A DNA stretch of 64,000 nucleotides from Siphonodentalium dalli (taxonomy: Eukaryota > Mollusca > Scaphopoda > Gadilida > Siphonodentaliidae): NCBI GenBank assembly GCA_032622095.1, contig CP136066.1:204870978-204934977 (forward strand). Direction: 5' to 3'. The translations under genes were made by a program, and so were the position numbers. This document shows positions 3,630 through 59,500 of this stretch, one piece after another. Below the pieces are notes generated by a model. It was given only the letters and a program-made list of their open reading frames with translations, searched no databases and was not told the origin of the DNA. How positions within the stretch are numbered: the stretch's first letter is position 1; each line of letters begins with the position of its first letter.

Positions 3630-3675
3630 AGTAGCACCACATTTAACCCTTGCTGCACAAAGATTATTTTTTAAT

Positions 3676-4452
3676 GGGGCCGCCTGATCAATGGGGCTGC
3701 CTGATCAATGGGGCCGCCTGATCAATGGGGCCGCCTGATCAATGGGGCCGCCTGATCAATGGGGCCACCTGATCAATGTGGCCACCTGATCAATGGAGCT
3801 GTATGATCAATGGGGCCACCTGATCAATGGGGCCGCCTCATCAATGGGGCCACCTGATCAATGGGGCTGCCTGATCAATGGGGCCACCTGATCAATGGGG
3901 CTGCCTGATCAATGGGGCCGCCTGATCAATGGGGCCGCCTGATCAATGGGGCCACCTGATCAATGGGGCCGCCTGATCAATGGGGCCGCCTGATCTATGG
4001 GGCTGCCTGATCAATGGGGCCGCCTGATCAATGGGGCCACCTGATCAATGGGGCTGCCTGATCAATGGGGCCGGCTGATCAATGGGGCCGCCTGATCAAT
4101 GGGGCCACCTGATCAATGGGGCTGCCTGATCAATGGGGCCGGCTGATCAATGGGGCCGCCTGATCAATGGGGCCACCTGATCAATGGGGCCGCCTCATCA
4201 ATGGGGCCACCTGATCAATGGGGCTGCCTGATCAATGGGGCCGGCTGATCAATGGGGCTGCCTGATCAATGGGGCCACCTGATCAATGGGGCTGCCTGAT
4301 CAATGGGGCCACCTGATCAATGGGGCCACCTGATCAATGGGGCTGCCTGATAAATGGGGCCACCTGATCAATGGGGCCGCCTGATCAATGGGGCCGGCTG
4401 ATCAATGGGGCCGCCTGATCAATGGGGCTGCCTGATCAATGGGGTCACCTGA
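3676..4452. repeat. 17-bp satellite array, about 45 copies
   Basis: Unit TGATCAATGGGGCCGCC repeats almost without interruption for about 780 bp. Variation is concentrated at one position block (GCCGCC, GCCACC, GCTGCC, GCCGGC). Each unit contains the 6-bp palindrome TGATCA. Confidence 0.95.
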
Positions 4453-4469
4453 TTGGCCTAACAATATTT

Positions 4470-15288: not shown

Positions 15289-15546
15289 TAGCAGACTCAA
15301 CTTCAGCTTGGTATTTCCCTGGTAATTAATGCTGGACTAAATTCAGACTTGGACATATATAGCAATCTGAATGTCGGCTTGGTATTTCCATGTTAATTAA
15401 TGCTGGACAGTGACCAGAGCTACTGGAACATATCATATAAATGTTCTTGTTTTCAGGCCACTTGGTAAGATCAGAATCTTCAAATGTGTTCTCAGTACAA
15501 CTAACTCTCTTCAAGAAACTGGAAATGTATCGCTACATGACACAAG

Positions 15547-16548
15547 TATGTTTTTATCCTGAATCCATGGATTATAGGGAACCAATGCACTCGCAGTGGG
15601 TAAATGTGGTTTTTATCCTGAATCCATGGATTATAGGGAACCAATGCACTCGCAGTGGGTAAATGTGGTTTTTATCCTGAATCTGTGGATTATAGGGATC
15701 CAAGGCACGCGCAGTGGGTAAATGTGGTTTTTATCCTGAATCTGTGGATTATAGGGATCCAAGGCACTCACAGTGGGTAAATGTGGTTTTTATCCTGAAT
15801 CCATGGATTATAGGGAACCAATGCACTCGCAGTGGGTAAATGTGGTTTTGATCCTGAATCTGTGGATTATAGGGATCCAAGGCACTCGCAGTGGGTAAAT
15901 GTGGTTATTATCCTGAATCCATGGATTATAGGGAACCAAGGCACTCGCAGTGGGTAAATGTGGTTTTTATCCTGAATCTGTGGATTATAGGGATCCAAGG
16001 CACTCGCAGTGGGTAAATGTGGTTATTATCCTGAATCTGTGGATTATAGGGATCCAAGGCACTCGCAGTGGGTAAATGTGGTTTTTATCCTGAATCCATG
16101 GATTATAGGGATCCAATGCACGCGCAGTGGGTAAATGTGGTTATTATCCTGAATCTGTGGAATATAGGGATCCAATGCACGCGCAGTGGGTAAATGTGGT
16201 TTTTATCCTGAATATGTGGATTATAGGGATCCAAGGCACTCGCAGTGGGTAAATGTGGTTTTTATCCTGAATCCATGGATTATAGGGAACCAATGCACTC
16301 GCAGTGGGTAAATGTGGTTATTATCCTGAATCTGTGGATTATAGGGATCCAATACACGCGCAGTGGGTAAATGTGGTTATTATCCTGAATCTGGATTATA
16401 GGGATCCAAGGAACTCGCAGTGGGTAAATGTGGTTATTATCCTGAATCTGGATTATAGGGAACCAAGGCACTCGCAGTGGGTAAATGTGGTTTTTATCCT
16501 GAATCTGTGGATTATAGGGAACCAAGGCACTCGCAGTGGGTAAATGTG
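15547..16548. repeat. 59-bp minisatellite, about 17 copies
   Basis: A unit reading roughly TTTTTATCCTGAATCTGTGG then ATTATAGGGATCCAAGGCAC then TCGCAGTGGGTAAATG repeats head to tail. Variation is mostly at fixed positions (ATCCATGG or ATCTGTGG; GATCC or GAACC; ACTCGC or ACGCGC). Two units lack three bases. Open frames crossing it on both strands arise from the periodicity. Confidence 0.95.
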
Positions 16549-47500: not shown

Positions 47501-50500
47501 GGTGAATTTAGTGATGCTATCCCGCAAGATGGGCTAGCATCACCAAATTCACCCTCTGGGAACCTCATTCTGCTTAGGCCCCAACTGCTGTGGGAGACCT
47601 AGGATCAGATTGAAATTCCCCAGTTGAAGTTGGTGATGTTCACCCATTACGGCATTAGTCACCTCGGTTGTGCATTTTATCTTCTGCAAATTAGGGTACA
47701 TAGAAAAAGGATAAAGAAAAAGTAACTAAAAACAATGTTAATTTTAGACTATATATACTTCCCAGAAGATGAGGCCTAAGCAGAATGAGGTCCCCAGAGG
47801 ATAAATTTGGTGAGACTAGCCTGCTGTATGGGGTAGCATCATTCACCCTCTGGGGACCTCATTCTGCAAATGACAGGCACACTATTTCCAGGCTTGTCAA
47901 AGGGGAGATTTGGGCTGGGGAAAGCACCCTAAAAGGCACCCGCTGCCCCTCATGTGGAAACCCTGTGTACACATGTACATGTATCTACAATGATAATATT
48001 TCAATAATTCTTTTAACACTTTCGTCTGCCTGCTGAATATTGTACACGTAGGTCAATAAAATAAATTTCTCTCCTTTTCAGAAAGAAAGTGGTTATCTGA
48101 AGCATGTGTATAATATATTTGAGAGAATCGGCTATGATACAAAAGGAGGATCAAATTCTGGATGGGATGTACTCTGGGCACATGACTATCCATTTGTCAC
48201 TTTAGCGAAACAAATTTCTAATCTTAAACCACATCAGAAGGTCAGTTCAAGTTTTATCTCCATCACCAATTTCATACTTCTCTCTATCACCAATTTCATA
48301 CTTCTCTCTATCACCAATTTCATACTTCCTTCAGGCCATAAAAATAAGATGATAAGATGATTTTCTGATTTTTTTTGTTGGAAAATTGGGGCTTGGGGTA
48401 GAATTTTATTTTTGGTCCAATAACTCGTCCTATAGTTTGGCGAGGTCGGTTTTGCGGATGGGCGTCCACAGATGGTGATAGCATGATAACTCTCTTTTTT
48501 TTATATTCAGTATACAAGACTTGCTAAAAAATGTCATGGCGGAATTATGGCCCTTATTTAGTTTATTTCCGTGAATTTTGTTCGGAATTGCGATATCTTG
48601 AAGAAATATCAACTCCAGTAGAGCTTTAGTCATCACTCCATTGTCTGTCGTACCATCCGTCCGTGCGTCAACAATTCTTTGAACATCTTCTCCAGATCCA
48701 TAGGACAATTAATTGAACATCTCCAGATACATAGGACTGAATGGGTTCATATTTGGTGTGAATGTTGTTCCCTAGGTACCTGGCATTCAGATTTGTTCAA
48801 ATGGGGTTACTGGGTCAAATAGGGGCAGAGTCAGGGACATAGCGCATTTCCTCCATAGTAATTCTTAAAACATCTTCTTATCAAGTACCATCAGGGTTAT
48901 TTATTTTATATTTGGTATGGAGGGTCCTTGGGTGACTGGGATTTAGATGTCAAATAGGTCCAAAAAAACAAAAAGTTAAATATATATATTTTTAATTTAA
49001 TTTTGGAATATTTATTTTTTTGCAGACCCCATGTGATATTGTTTGCATATTTTGTTGCAGGTAAACCATTTCCCTGGCAGTGGTTATATAACCAACAAAG
49101 CTAGTCTGGCTGTATCAACATTCAACTTTGTACCTCAAGCATTCAAGCTCCCAGATGAAAAGGACAAACTTATACAACATGTAAGTTTACAATATTATCT
49201 GTAGACCTATTGGTTCTGGCTAAAAGCGTTAAAATGATTTTTAAGGATAATTTAGTTAAAGGGGGACTGTACAATAAATCTGGCCATTTATGGGACCATC
49301 TCCTATTATACTCAACAGAATATGTGCAACAAATGAATGAATTTGAGCCATGAAAGAGTGCAAAATATGCTCATGTGCTACTAATCCGTCACTCAAATTC
49401 ATTCATTTGTTTCATATATTCTGTAGAGTATAATAGGAGATGGTCCCATAAATGGTCGGATTTAGTGTACAGTCCCCCTTTAACCCTTTCTTTTCAAATG
49501 TTCTCATAATAAGTTCAACAACGACCATATGTGACCCGCCATATCAAATCCAGTAGTAAGTCGGGATTTTTTTTACCCTATGCCAATGCATTCTCTTATA
49601 TATGCGAGTCGACCATAGGTCGCCTCGCATATATAAGAGAATGCATTGGCCTAACAATTTTAATAATTTTTTCTTGTATTCTTTAACAATTTTATAATTT
49701 CACCCATACAGAGCCCCAGACAAACATGAGCAGACAACACTCTTCTATATGCTTCTATATATGTGTGGGGCTCCCTGCAGGGTAATGGATGTTTTTTATT
49801 TTATGTCCTAAAAATTGTCAGAAACATTTATTTTAAAAAAATGATAAAAAACTGTTAGGCCAATGCATTCTCTTATATATGCGAGGCGACCTATGGTCGA
49901 CTCGCATATATAAGAGAATGCATTGGCACAGGTTAAAAAAAATCCCGACTTACGACTGGATTTGATATGGCGGGTCACATATTATAAACTCATTGACGAG
50001 TAGTTCCTTAGTTCTTTGTTGAACTTATTGTATGAACATTTCCCTCCAATGAAATTCACTCATTCTGCACATTTATATTATCTTTTTGCCTGTCTGTCAT
50101 CTGCTCATTTTTCTTGAACACCCCTCCAAATGAATAATAGACCATTCCAATATATACTTTATAACCGTGCGGTAGGATCCAATTAGTTAAGAATGGGTTA
50201 AAGTTCACTTGCGGACCATTTTCAGAATATCTGCTGAGAACTGGATATATTAGAATTGACTTTTCTTAAAATATTTAATTGAATTTGACTCTGCCGACTG
50301 TGGTGATCATCAATATTTTTGTCTCGTGTTTTATTTGCTGAAAAACGGGGTGTATTATGTTATAGTCTGAACATTTCCTTCGATTCATCCATCAGTCCAT
50401 CCATCCAATCGCTTTTGGTTTCCGGATGATGACTTTAGATAGTGTTACCATAACTGAATGGAATTAAATTTATTATGTGGGTTTCTAGCACAAAATACAG

Positions 50501-53500
50501 GTCAAGTTCGAATTCGGGTTCCACCTGCCAATTTTCACCAGAGTTATGGCTCTTTTTGTTGGAATTTTCGTTTTTGGATGATAAACTTAGGTAAGTCTGA
50601 ACTGAATGGAATGAAATCTATTATGTGACTTACTAGCCAAAAAATTCAAATTTGTCACTTCCCTCCAATTTCACCAGAGTTAAGGCTCTTTGTTGGAATT
50701 ACCACAGGCATATTTTGCAATGCCCTTTCGATGCTCTTGTTTAAATTAATAAAACATTACATGTTTCATTATGGAATCTATTTTAAGATTAAGGAACATC
50801 CAGAAAAGATGTGGGTTCAGAAGAGTAATAAGCATAGAGGCATACACATCAAAACTATAGATAGTAAGTACTGTAAAACCTGTCTAAACTGACATACACA
50901 TCAAAACTATAGATAGTAAGTACTGTAAAACCTGTCAAAGTAATAAGCATAGAGGCATACGCATCAAAACTATAGATAGTAAGTACTGTAAAACCTGTCA
51001 AAGTAATAAGCATAGAGGCATACGCATCAAAACTATAGATAGTAAGTACTGTAAAACCTGTCAAAGTAATAAGCATAGAGGCATACGCATCAAAACTATA
51101 GATAGTAAGTACTGTAAAACCTGTCAAAGTAATAAGCATAGGGGCATACGCATCAAAACTATAGATAGTAAGTACTGTAAAACCTGTCTAAACTGACATA
51201 CACATCAAAACTATAGATAGTAAGTACTGTAGAACCTGTCTGAGTAATAAGCACAGAGGCATACGCATCAAAACTATAGATAGTAAGTAATGTAAAACCT
51301 GTCAAAGTAATAAGCATAGAGGCATACGCATCAAAACTATCGATAGTAAGTACTGTAAAACTAGGGTTCTGCGAATTGGAAATTTTGATCGAATCGAATA
51401 TCGAATCGAATGCTAGAAATCAAATCGAATATCGATTCGAATCATATCTGTATGTTGTATTCTCAATTGGGCATGTTTTGTCAACGATTAGACGATTTGT
51501 GAAACGTTCCATGAACTACATGCACGAAGTTAAATCATAACGTATGTGGCGATGAACCGTCATTTGCAATACTATTAACTTCAATTAATAATTGATTAAA
51601 ACGTCCAATCGGCCGTCACGACGATTAATATATAACCACTAAACGGATTATTGGAACTAAAATCACGCAAAATTTGTACAGATTGCATATGCATGCAAAA
51701 TTGCAAATCAACATTCGGAATCACCCGTTTTTATAAACTTGAAGATGCAACAACAGTCGCAGTGTAGCCTGTTTATGTAGTGCTGGATGCTTCTTGGACA
51801 GATGATTCCATAGGTGGGTCGTTGTCCCAGATGCTTGCGATTTATACACCATGTTGCATTCATCATATGTGTAAGCCTGCAGCTTTATCATGTTTAAAAT
51901 AAACATGAATAACGGATGACGTTTTGTCAAGTGTCAAAAACGCTCCGAAATTGAAAGTAAACTTCAAAAGAAAACACCGCGAAAATGCAGTTTTCGATGC
52001 CGGGAACACGTGTTGTTTAAATTCTGAGCTATATTACATAACGCGGAATCTGAGACGGATAGACCGCGGATAACGCTAGCGGTTGATCAGTCTCATAGCT
52101 ATTATAATTTACGTGCGTTGTCGGTCCATCGACGATCTCCGAGCTTTTGGCTACCATGTTCAAAGATAGAAATCAGACGTATTTAGTTGTCATATAGTGG
52201 CTAATTGCTGTCTATACTTATATTTAATATATATAATCGCGATGTACAATGATAATTATAAGAAACATATATACATCATTTTCTGTAATTAAATGGCACA
52301 AAACAGCTAAGATCGACGTGTGTACCTGCCCGTAAACAGCCTACTTTTCCATCATTGTATATTCGAAATTTCGAGTTGGCAATTTCGAATCGAATTCGAA
52401 TCGAATTTGACTTTCGAATCGAATATCGAATATTCGCAGGACCCTATGTAAAACCTGTCATGAGTAATAAGCATAGAGGCATACACATCAAAACTATAGA
52501 TAGTAAGTACTGTAGAACATGTCTAAACTGACATACACATCAAAACTATAGATAGTAAGTACTGTAAAACCTGTCAAAGTAATAAGCATAGAGGCATACA
52601 CATCAAAACTATAGATAGTAAGTACTGTAAAACCTGTCGTGAGTAATAAGCATAGAGACATACACATCAAAACTATAGATAGTAAGTACTGTAAAACCTG
52701 TCGTGAGTAATAAGCATAGAGACATACACATCAAAACTATAGATAGTAAGTACTGTAAAACCTGTCTGAGTAATAAGCATAGAGGCATACGCATCAAAAC
52801 TATAGATAGTAAGTACTGTAAAACCTGTCTGAGTAATAAACATAGAGGCATACACATCAAAACTATAGATAGTAAGTACTGTAAAACCTGTCTAAACTGA
52901 CAACTAAATTTTATGCTAGAGTTGACAGTGGTTAGCATAATTTTTTGGTAATTAATCGATTCTGATAACTAATGGGTCTTTTGAAGAAATGTTGTTGTTG
53001 CATTCTGATGATATGGGGACCATCGAATTGGATTGTGTACCTTTAACGCCTTTTCTATTGATATCAAGTCGTACAAACAGTGATTGTTGAAATATAAGAC
53101 TCAATGTTGCAAAAATTATTTTCATTTTTCAAAATGGTGATGTTCACCCATTAATCACTTCAATTATGCATTTTATCTTCTGCATATTAAGGTATATAGA
53201 ACTGAACAGAATGTAAACAGTAACTAAAAACTACTTTAATTTGAGACGAGATACTTCCCAGAAGATTAGGCCTAAGCAGAATGAGGTCACCAGAGGATGA
53301 ATTTAGTAATGCTAGCCCACTTTGCTGGGTAGTATCACTAAATTCACCCTCTGGGGACCTCATTCTGCAAATGACAGACACACTATTTCAAAGCTCAATT
53401 TGGTGTGATCTACATGCATATCATTACTTTGTCTACTGTCTACTCTGTAACCAAACTCTTCTATTATTAATGTTTCATTGCAGCCCTGGACCTAACCAGT

Positions 53501-56500
53501 TCTATTATTAATGTTTCATTGCAGCCCTGGACCTAACCAGTTCTATTATTAATGTTTCATTGCAGCCCTGGACCTAACCAGTTCTATTATTAATGTTTCA
53601 TTGCAGCCCTGGACCTAACCAGTTCTATTATTAATGTTTCATTGCAGCCCTGGACCTAACCAGTTCTATTATTAATGTTTCATTTGCAGCCCTGGACCTA
53701 ACCAGTTCTATTATTAATGTTTCATTTGCAGCCCTGGACCTAACCAGTTCTATTATTAATGTTTCATTTGCAGCCCTGGACCTAACCAGTTCTATTATTA
53801 ATGTTTCATTGCAGCCCTGGACCTAACCAGTTCTATTATTAATGTTTCATTTGCAGCCCTGGACCTAACCAGTTCTATTATTAATGTTTCATTTGCAGCC
53901 CTGGACCTAACCAGTTCTATTATTAATGTTTCATTGCAGCCCTGGACCTAACCAGTTCTATTATTAATGTTTCATTGCAGCCCTGGACCTAACCAGTTCT
54001 ATTATTAATGTTTCATTGCAGCCCTGGACCTAACCAGTTCTATTATTAATGTTTCATTGCAGCCCTGGACCAAACCAGTTCTATTATTAATGTTTCATTG
54101 CAGCCCTGGACCTAACCAGTTCTATTATTAATGTTTCATTGCAGCCCTGGACCTAACCAGTTCTATTATTAATGTTTCATTGCAGCCCTGGACCTAACCA
54201 GTTCTATTAATGTTTCATTGCAGCCCTGGACCTAACCAGTTCAACTACATTTGTTCAGGAGTATGTCGCCAAGCCATTTCTTATTGATGATAGGTATGAG
54301 CAACTTTTATTTATGCCATAATTATACCCCCATATTTTATCAAAGAAAAATAGGGGATATAATGGAGTGACTGTGTCCGTCTGTCTGTCCATCCATCCGG
54401 GCATATATCTCATCCATGGGTTAACTGATTTTTGTTGATATTCGGTATATGAGACTTGCTTAACAATGTCTTGATCGAGTTCGAAAACCGGCCAGGCCAT
54501 TAATTTGTTCATTTTTGTGAAATTTGATCATGATAGCATGATAACTTGAAAAAATTTCAACTGATTTTTAGCTCAACTTACCTTGTAAGTTTGAGCTATT
54601 GCCATGATTTGGCGTCCGTCGTCCGTGTGTGTGTGTGTCCGTCAACAATTTCCTTTGGCGCGGGCTACAGGTCGTACCTTTGTTCTGATCTTTATGAAAT
54701 TTGTCATGAATATTGACATGTACATGGGAACGAGTCATTTTGGTGTCATTCGGCCAAAAAACATGGCTGCTGGCAGCCATCTTGGATTTCAAAATTCAAT
54801 CCATTGGCGCGGGCTATAGGTCGTACTATTCGTCTGATCATCATGAAATTTGTCATGGATGTTAATATTGACATGTAGATGGGAACGAGTGATTTTGGGG
54901 TCGTTCGGCCAAAAAACATGGCCGCCAGCAGCCATCTTGGATTTTACTCTTTGCATGACTAAATCCTTTGGCGCGGGCTACAGGTTGTAGCTTTGGTCGG
55001 AACTTCATGAAATTTTCATGGATGTTAACAATGACATGTAGATGGGAACGAGTCATTTTGGTGTCGTTCGGCCGAAAAACATGGCCGTCAGCAGCCATCT
55101 TGGATTTTACTCTTTACATGACTAAATCCTTTGGCGCGGGCTACAGGTCGTACCTTTTGTCTGATGTTTATGAAATTTGTCATGAACGTTGCCATTGACA
55201 TGTAGATGGGAACGAGTCATTTTGGGGTCATTCGGCAACAAAAGCATGGCTGCTGGCAGCCATCTTGGATTTCAAAATTCAATCCATTGGCGCGGGCTAC
55301 AGGTCGTACTATTCGTCTTATCATCATGAAATTTGTCATGGATGTTAATATTGACATGTAGATGGGAATGTGTCATTTTGGGGTCGTTAGCAGCCCTCTT
55401 GGATTTTACTCTTTGCATGACTAAATCCTTTGTCGTTGGCTACAGGTCATAGCTTTGGTCAGATCTTCATGAAATTTGTCATGGATGTTAACAATGACAT
55501 GTAGATGGGAACGAGTCCTTTGGGGTCAATTGGCCAAAAAACATGACCGCCAGCAGCCATCTTGGATTTTACTCTTTGCATGACTAAATCCTTTGGCACA
55601 GGTCAGACATTGCAATTAGCACCTTTCCTTTCCTATATACTGTCAACCATTAAATTATTCCCCTACCTATCAATTTGTGTAGGAATAATTAACACTGTCC
55701 ATCCACCAATAGACATGTTCTATCCGATGCGAAAACTCAAGTATTTTTTTTTCGCTCATGTTCATATTTTATTTGCAGGTTTATGATGACCCTCCCCTCA
55801 CCTGTATAGTTCTTGGTATCGATCGGTTAATTGGTTTAGAAAAAAATTAACTCTTCACAAACATGCTATCCGATGCATTAAGTCAAATACTTTTCTTCTG
55901 ATCTGCCTCATATTTCTTACCTAGATTTTTCTGATCACACTCTTCATCTGTATGGATTTGATATTGATTAATTAACCCTTTTCACTCTTGAACCAGGTTT
56001 ATTAATGCACACTCTATAATACTAATATTTAATTAGTTTTATACCATTAATAGATGTAATGTCCTGTTTTGAAATTAGGAAGATTCCATCAATAACTCAA
56101 ATATCTTTCCTGCATGGTTAACATTAAAGAATGAAATATGAAGCCACTCAAACATTTCCTTTGTACTTCCTTTCTAGTCATATGACTTTTAATTATTATC
56201 ATACACCCCTTCTCTGCCCAGTCTCTCTGCTTGTGGAAGAAATGATATAAATTGCACAACTATATTTGAATTTAATTACATTCTTAGACATCTCCTAAGC
56301 AAGCAGTATTTGTTTATCAGAGTGAGTGATAGACTTAAGTGTGTGAAAATTTATTTTGATCTTTGCATGACTAAATCCTGATACAGGCCACATCCCTCAT
56401 CCGATTGTCGACAAACTCTAGATGGGAGCTGTCTATTTTTGTGTCTATTGTTTCACAAAATCAGGCAACCATGCGCTCTATGGTCAGCAACAATCATGAC

Positions 56501-59500
56501 TTAAAATTTGTACAAGAATCAGAATTGATTCTCGCAAATGACACCCTCAAAGTGAAACATGAGAATCAAGTTTGAATCTCGCATACATTTATCTCTGCTT
56601 TGTTGTATAAAGACATCATATGATAGCTATTAGGCCAAGGTGTTTTTTTTTCAATTGGCCAACAATAAATCTTTCAAAATTGAAAGCTATACATGTACAA
56701 TAAATATTGCAATTCTGAATTTCTGTCACATTCACATCAACTCATTTGACTGAAGATACAGGGAGAGGGCAAACTTTTTTTATGATTTGAAAGTAAGATA
56801 ATACTGTTTAGAAATTGTCTCAGTGCACTGTGCATTGAATTTTCAAAACTTTCCCAGGGATGCCCTTCAAACCGTCTCTAACTTGAAAGGAGTGATACAA
56901 CATACCCCCCCCCCCCCCCTCTCTCAACCAACTTGTGGCATAATCAGGATTTGAATTTGATTCTTATACCCTCAAACTTGTGAATCAGCTCTGATTCTCG
57001 CAAATAATGGATGGATTTTAATGCCTGAACAACCATGACTGTTTTGTCACCATCTAAATACTATAATTGTCTTTGTTTCAGGAAATTTGACATTGGTGTT
57101 TATGCCATATTGACTTCAATAGATCCACTGAGAGCTTACATAATCGAAGGTGACTTTCTTATTCGGTGAGTTTTATTTCGACAAATCCAGACAAATCTCA
57201 AATTTATTATTATTCTATGACAGAGTTCCTGAAAATGTTTGCAAAGTGTAAATATGTGGTGAAAAGCATTAAATTATAGTGTTGAAATGATTTTTCGACA
57301 AGTCGATGTCGACACGATTAGTGCTTGTAGTCGATTAAAAATTACTGGTTGATTATTCGGATTGCGTTGGAGACATGTGCCTTTTCTCAGTTATGTAAAA
57401 TTGTTACATGGTAGACTATACAAGATGCGAGGTAATGTCAAGGAAAGTATTAAACTATAGATAGTTTGTCTCCAAAATCTGTCTCATCATTTCTTTGATG
57501 ATTTACCTCGTGCTTGTGAACATCACAAAGAATTGCAACATTGTAGCACCAATGCCTTTGATCGCAGAACAACAAACGAAAATAGTTGTTTGATGTACTG
57601 ACCCGGTTCAAAGCCCATGCCTGTGTTTAAGCCCACCCATATATTTTGGCCAAATTCCTTGCACAGGGGTATATTCGTGTTTAAGCCCACCCCAAATTTT
57701 GTTCAATTTCAGCGGTGGTAAGTAAGTATTTGCTAATAATACTTCCCAAATAAATAATTCCAATATAACGGGAAGTACCAATATAACGGGAAGTATATTC
57801 ACAAACGATTGGTGACGGCGAGAATGCCACGAAAAATGGAAAGTTATACTTCGTAGGTATTAGTGATAATAAATAAAATAAAATAAAGTGAATCTTAAAA
57901 TCTCATTTGTTTATTCAATTATACTTCCTGGGGGAAACCAATCGTCAACAGACATCAAATACAAAAGAATGCACTCGCTAACGGCGTATATCTGAGAACG
58001 CGGTAAACATCAGTCACTTCAAAGAGTCACGTGCGTCCATCGCACACATGTCAACAACAGTACTCTAAAAACATATTCTTTGTATGTCGGTATGTTCCTA
58101 CATGTGGCCAAACACAAAAAGAACTCATTCCCTGGTTTTGTAAACACACGGTGGGTATAATAATGGGGCAGAAGGGGGACTTGTCATCCACAACACCCCA
58201 ACAGCACAAGATGCCTTCAAAAAAAGAGATACCGATGTCGTATTGGTACCCGGTAAATAATCATTATTTAAAAAATTTAAACTTCTATTTTTCACGTTTT
58301 ACGATATAGACTATAGTATAAACATTAATCTGTGTCAACGGTTTGGAAGCGATAGGCTAACTCTAAACATTCAAACACGTGTTTTTTTGTATACGTATTT
58401 ACATCGTAATTTTGTTAATTAACTAGACTCACTGGAGCCGTCACTATTGTATTGTAACTCTTTGTAGACAACGTGCCATGAATAGAGCACTGGGTTCATT
58501 GTTATCGGATTAAGTCACTCTCTTATATGTTGCATAATATTTCCCTGTACAATTTTCAGACATTTTTTAATTATTATCTTTGGCTTCGATGACGACAGCA
58601 AAGTTGTGTTGTTGTGGGGATCACGTACATCTGAAGATTGATATAAACTATAGATATAGACTATAGATAGTGGATTTATCCAGCTGTCTGAAATGGCAGA
58701 AATTTGATGACCCATGATGCTTACAAACTGTCATTTATGGGAATTTTGGGCAATAAAACAAGACAAGAAGTAATATTTTAATATACACATCAAAATGAAA
58801 AAAATAGTTTCTCAAAGTAACTTATACTTAACTTTATTTAATCTGGAAGCCGTGTATATTTCCCTGAAACTCTGTGTTGGATCGACTTTATTTTATGGAT
58901 CCATTTCTTCAGTTTTACTGTCCCGATTTCTTGGGATTTTTGGTTTGCAAAGGGTCATATTCGAGTTTAAGCCCACTTGGATTTTTGAGCTCAAATAAAA
59001 CAAAGGCCCCCTGGGCCTAAACGCGGGTCAGTATGGTAATAGATGTTAAATCTGTTCACTTTTAATAATTCCTAATGTTACTGTGAACCAACACCACATC
59101 AACTGTAGATCTGTTCAACAATCAACATAGTAATGACAGTGCGCAGGCCTGTAGGTGGCGTACCTTTAAACACCACTCTATTAATACCGTACTGACCCGC
59201 ATAGGCCCAGGGGGCCTTTGTTTTATTTGAGCTCAAAAATCCAAGTGGGCTTAAACTCGGATATGGCCCTTTGCAAAAATGCAAACCAAAAATCCTAAAA
59301 ATCGGGACAGTAAAACTAATGAAAGCCGATCTGACGCCGATTATTTGGGAATTTTTTAAATGTGAATATTAAAATATTATAATAACACTTTAAGTCTTGT
59401 AGTTTTATTGGACAACATTCCCATGTTAAAATGACACTATTATGTAAGTACATGTAGTCTTGACTGACAGCCGTCTTGTTCCCAAAGTGTATGCTTGGAG

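Follow-up and report, generated by a model that had tools for sequence, protein, structure and literature searches.

Minisatellites whose repeat unit spans an exon-intron boundary, termed 'mirages', have been described in amphioxus in Adh3 and in the globin genes BflGb6 (acceptor) and BflGb9 (donor) (PMC3087553). According to the portions of that report at hand, duplication can affect 5' as well as 3' boundaries, units measure 10-160 bp, and RT-PCR is said to suggest regular splicing (PMC3087553). A second amphioxus report, as far as its available text goes, places repeats of 60 and 108 bp at two exons of one gene, PGBD5 (PMC3902484). An earlier note on the DNA analysed here had called attention to an intron that begins with an array of donors and ends with an array of acceptors, and had presented it as a phenomenon without described precedent. 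This claim holds for the double arrangement only: boundary-spanning arrays themselves are known and in print for amphioxus, while the accessible parts of the openly licensed literature yielded no report of one intron arrayed at both ends.

The window (the whole stretch of DNA analysed, 64,000 nucleotides) lies on contig C6 of a genome assembly of 2.2 Gb in nine contigs, a genome unlike that of amphioxus. Its plus strand carries part of a TTLL (tubulin-tyrosine-ligase-like) gene, which encodes a tubulin-modifying enzyme, with four exons placed as follows.

49061 to 49180, plus strand: TTLL exon X, starting and ending in phase 0 and in phase with exon A, single-exon homology at E=0.014
50788 to 50863, plus strand: TTLL exon A (76 bp), ending at the first donor, placed by in-phase joining and TTL match
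54224 to 54293, plus strand: TTLL exon B (70 bp), starting at the last acceptor, placed by in-phase joining and TTL match
57082 to 57165, plus strand: TTLL exon C (84 bp), KFDIGVYAILTS..., placed by homology and in-phase joining

All four exons are bordered by AG and GT and can be joined in phase, the acceptor of exon A being predicted from the phase to be TTTTAAG. Singly, these short exons give no row in a genome-wide PF03133 search. Joined, X-A-B-C encode 116 residues that match PF03133 (Pfam TTL) at E=9.9e-24 over profile positions 11-137, score 84.5 bits against a PF03133 cut-off of 20.1, as expected of a TTLL family member, and match a solved TTLL7 chain at E=1.7e-10. The 3,360-bp intron between exons A and B is thus flanked, as the earlier note had stated, by two TTLL exons, which join in phase as a TTL domain. 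A ~163-bp tandem repeat (TCCTTTGGCGCGGGCTACAGG...) is found shortly after exon B, at 54651-55597, and also occurs at loci L023, L024 and L040.

Each end of the A-B intron is occupied by a tandem array, the first of which is split by an insertion.

50824 to 52893, plus strand: donor array, exon-A end and GTAAGT repeated in 16 copies of mostly 63 bp, split by the insertion (TRF and pattern search)
51362 to 52446, no strand assigned: insertion of 1,085 bp inside the donor array, bounded by terminal inverted repeats (TAGGGTYCTGCGAAT) and flanked by a target duplication of 8 bp (TGTAAAAC)
53459 to 54242, plus strand: acceptor array, a unit of TTTCATTGCAG and the opening 16 bases of exon B present 19 times (TRF and pattern search)

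The last exon bases of the donor copies run from 50863 to 52871, and their 15 spacings consist of 63 bp (nine), 52 bp (three), 64 bp (two) and one gap of 1,157 bp, which contains the insertion with its inverted ends; TRF reports the 63-bp period at 50893-51361 and 52532-52893. We take the insertion to be hAT-like, as left by a non-autonomous hAT-type element. The first exon bases of the acceptor copies run from 53484 to 54224 at spacings of 41 or 42 bp, the last being 38 bp, and TRF describes this array as 41 bp x19.1 with 98% matches (53459-54242). Copies were located by a pattern containing the splice hexamer; since their regular spacing leaves no unit missing, every one of the 16 donors and 19 acceptors is intact. 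The counts and coordinates that had been claimed for the 16 donor and 19 acceptor copies are thus borne out by TRF and pattern search, with the qualification that the earlier description of the donor array omitted the 1,085-bp insertion, the 52- and 64-bp spacings and a further 59-bp array in the window.

Like mirages, the units span an exon end and intron start or an intron end and exon start, and their lengths (41/42 bp and 52-64 bp) are of minisatellite order. The donor and acceptor units are no more alike than shuffled units, 260 of 300 shuffles scoring as high, which agrees with the initial description of them as unrelated and supports two unrelated amplifications, each with one splice boundary of the same intron. 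Searches of the genome against itself, which omit very common words, matched both units only at their own locus (seven of seven places for each). A mobile intron, an introner-like element or a mobile unit is not supported, as both units matched only locally in these searches. Hairpin-forming units were considered as a cause of expansion, and single-strand DNA folds of three units proved unremarkable (z 1.5, -1.4 and -0.5). We make no claim of selection preserving GTAAGT in 16 of 16 copies, as an unchanged hexamer would be expected with P=0.07 if it diverged like the remainder of the unit.

Each of the 304 donor-acceptor combinations was translated to the end of exon C. A single pair is stop-free, namely the first donor (50863) with the last acceptor (54224), in which both sites are the copies closest to the body of their exon; another 90 pairs keep phase and meet a stop, and the remaining 213 shift the frame and meet a stop. 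The 304 pairs proposed in the earlier note are thus correct as a formal count, but 303 of them hold a stop before the end of exon C. On the donor side an in-frame stop comes with the first intronic unit, a 52-bp variant, and makes every distal site unproductive. On the acceptor side the period of 41 bp shifts the frame. Use of acceptor 18 or 17 would give an exon of 108 or 149 bp, and use of donor 2 or 3 an exon of 128 or 191 bp.

We consider it probable, judging from sequence, that the arrays represent two mirages at one intron whose exon-proximal sites are mostly spliced and whose other sites are decoys or give rise to nonsense transcripts. On this view the intron would have undergone two independent minisatellite expansions, each arising from a unit that lay across one of its splice boundaries and growing on the intron side. 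We infer that the spliceosome mostly uses donor 1 with acceptor 19: with exons 76, 70 and 84 bp long and an intron of 3.4 kb, recognition is expected to proceed by exon definition, which favours the splice sites nearest to each exon. The competing sites differ little in sequence, and the choice among them should therefore depend on position and not on strength. The other 15 donors and 18 acceptors are probably decoys or makers of nonsense transcripts, and leakage to donors 2-3 and acceptors 17-18, declining with distance and giving nonsense transcripts, is plausible. A point that counts against this explanation is that under a scanning model of acceptor choice the sequence permits 17 of 19 upstream-first choices. 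Each acceptor copy has its own pyrimidine stretch and AG, and a first-come choice of upstream acceptors is possible and would yield nonsense transcripts. The presence of two arrays at one intron may itself be due to a local cause instead of to two independent events. Recursive splicing and microexons between copies were set aside on inspection by eye.

Further arrays are present in the window and its flank. One is a third boundary array, which lies at the end of a coding-like exon.

15496 to 15599, plus strand: coding-like exon, open in one frame, with its end at copy 1 of the 59-bp array
15550 to 16548, plus strand: third boundary array, 59 bp x17, with a CAGTGG/GTAAATG donor (TRF)

The exon at 15496-15599 has no Pfam match and no significant PDB match. 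A fourth array (45 bp x5, 100% matches) lies ~15 kb downstream at 69779-70001 in window numbering (L022:5779-6001), where it apparently ends a further exon of the same TTLL gene, an assignment made by eye; a TTLL exon follows it at L022:8302-8472 (E=0.076). Elsewhere in the window, a 17-bp x46 array (AATGGGGCCGCCTGATC) at 3673-4453 has no splice signal discernible by eye.

TRF analysis of TTLL-paralogue regions revealed more arrays with a donor in the unit. We then assembled 54 exons found by homology: 23 TTL, 21 kinesin and 10 further TTLL exons. The TTL exons are those of 29 PF03133 rows that fall within retrieved regions; the kinesin exons come from 20 regions taken at random from 111 merged regions with 123 rows; and the further TTLL exons come from rows to E=0.5, of which 13 new ones were tested and 10 counted, three belonging to the gene of the A-B intron and being excluded. 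Two rows judged false by eye were removed (L024:2106, E=0.019; window:1439, E=0.43). A boundary was scored as repeated if the 24 bases around it recur nearby with at most five mismatches. The donor-boundary arrays found on other chromosomes, at TTLL-paralogue and kinesin exons and with periods of 30-90 bp, are the following.

L028:3604-4220, donor-boundary array
L053:472-729, donor-boundary array
L057:413-755, donor-boundary array
L045:644-721, donor-boundary array
L023:5841-6020, donor-boundary array
L026:7776-7957, donor-boundary array, found through the array itself and entering only the period comparison below

Donors are tandemly repeated at six of the 54 exons (L028 twice, L053, L057, L045 and L023), and acceptors at none of the 54; one acceptor, at L046, has a single match 447 bp away that is not tandem. 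The A-B intron is not an isolated case in this genome. Several features of the sample qualify the donor count. The L045 donor and one L028 donor have a single further copy at up to five mismatches. At L057 the scored donor is probably not the true one, and the scorer's picks and the likely true site lie within the same 90-bp array. The L023 donor, at an exon with E=0.26 only, was first noticed through its array, and leaving it out gives 5/53; the first 44 exons alone give 4/44. In some cases the sample includes exons that arose as recent copies of one another (L037/L039, L035/L036 and L041/L048). A further region, L059:1-280, looks like a donor array and was left out of the count as it has no kinesin row.

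Whether the donor count exceeds expectation depends on the background chosen. Raw tandem coverage at five mismatches is 7.3% at the kinesin loci and 11.7% at the TTLL loci (6.0% and 10.3% at four mismatches), and against this raw coverage of about 7-12% the 11% of donors represent no excess. We therefore used a copy-collapsed background, as a long array counts repeatedly in raw coverage whereas a boundary is hit once, at the founding of the array. Counting each founding unit once, for periods of 25-130 bp, gives 1.29% (at least two copies) or 0.75% (at least three copies). Compared with 1.29%, the donors are in excess in the full sample (6/54, P=7e-5), without L023 (5/53, P=6e-4) and among the first exons (4/44, P=0.0025). 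For arrays of at least three copies the donor count is 4/54 (P=7e-4). These comparisons carry a slight bias towards excess in that up to two candidate sites per boundary are compared with single background positions. An earlier collapsed estimate with laxer periods was 2.8%, against which 4/44 reaches P=0.03 only. Acceptors, at 0/54, fit the 1.29% background (P=0.50), and the difference between donors and acceptors has P=0.03 (6/54), 0.06 (5/53) or 0.12 (4/44). From these small samples, a donor excess in this genome is likely rather than proven. With no acceptor array in the 54-exon sample, the acceptor half of the picture rests on one locus.

The periods of the arrays bear on a different reading, in which distal donors are regularly used, each donor array serves as a cassette that extends its exon in frame, and periods that are multiples of three have been maintained by selection. 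Among arrays with a TRF period of 25-120 and at least 2.4 copies, the period is divisible by three in six of eight donor arrays versus three of 22 non-boundary arrays (Fisher P=0.003), although the comparison was made post hoc and some of the 22 control arrays are inter-related. Adding two donor arrays outside the TRF criteria gives seven of ten, and with the acceptor array of the window added the count is six of nine (P=0.007). The L022 and L057 arrays are open through every copy, and the full 63-bp unit of the A-B donor array is open in its exon's frame. At the A-B intron, however, the in-frame stop of the 52-bp first intronic unit leaves every distal donor unproductive; a stop is present in the units of L053 and L023, two of the seven that are in frame, and the acceptor array of the window (41 bp), the 59-bp array and the L026 array (40 bp) are not in frame. 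The divisible-by-three bias would fit selection on frame where a distal donor is used, and we regard exon extension as a general account, judged from these sequences, as unlikely.

Two other accounts concern the origin of the arrays themselves. That the assembler collapsed, expanded or invented them is highly improbable: a single assembly is the source, and one amphioxus mirage was aberrantly assembled in a draft, according to the available text of that report (PMC3087553), but variable unit lengths, scattered point differences and a nested insertion with a target duplication speak against simple artefactual stuttering, and similar arrays are found on other chromosomes. It is very unlikely that the arrays are the remains of a Rogers-type gain, in which a proto-splice site is duplicated in tandem and a new intron results. 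Duplications of this kind that carry splice signals have been proposed as a source of new introns, and the amphioxus authors suggested this for mirages in the portions of their report at hand (PMC3087553), yet such a gain requires the same unit at both intron ends, and the two units of the A-B intron are unrelated.

The larger lead offered by this locus is that donor arrays are apparently abundant in the genome. Given the small samples, donors may be preferred sites of repeats, and distal donors may sometimes be used. If there are arrays at about one in ten donors and at fewer acceptors, introns arrayed at both ends would be expected now and then in the genome. A wider hypothesis, which we put forward tentatively and regard as rather doubtful, would make donors preferred birthplaces of minisatellites, with about one in ten multiplied and a bias towards in-frame periods; the proximal copy would be picked, distal copies would contribute in-frame leakage, and doubly arrayed introns would be a by-product. 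Near-identical competing sites that differ only in position make it possible to tell the effect of strength from that of distance, and exon definition from a first-come choice, and the A-B intron offers such a test in an unmanipulated genome. Arraying of about one in ten donors would in addition provide many natural replicates and a possible source of new exon ends, and would allow the idea that splice donors provoke repeat formation to be put to the test.

Several described systems resemble the A-B intron in part. NAGNAG-type tandem alternative splice sites, in the sources at hand, likewise present several competing sites of one kind, but these lie a few bases apart, whereas here the sites are 41-64 bp apart in near-identical units. 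Intron-making repeat expansion in Cryptococcus also involves tandem expansion with splice sites; in the available text whole identical introns are multiplied, in contrast to the one boundary per array seen here (PMC2395259). The variable internal tandem repeats of human duplicated genes include ~30-bp minisatellites at exon-intron boundaries that can alter splicing, and as described in the accessible portions they belong to recent segmental duplicates and are tied to exon/intron changes between paralogues, whereas the genes here are single-locus (PMC2812944). The closest likeness is to the amphioxus mirages, which share minisatellite-like boundary-spanning units of similar length (10-160 bp, compared with 41-63 bp here) and repeated splice signals (PMC3087553). 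In the text available for amphioxus, acceptor and donor cases occur in different genes with 2-7 copies, whereas a single intron here carries 16 donor and 19 acceptor copies.
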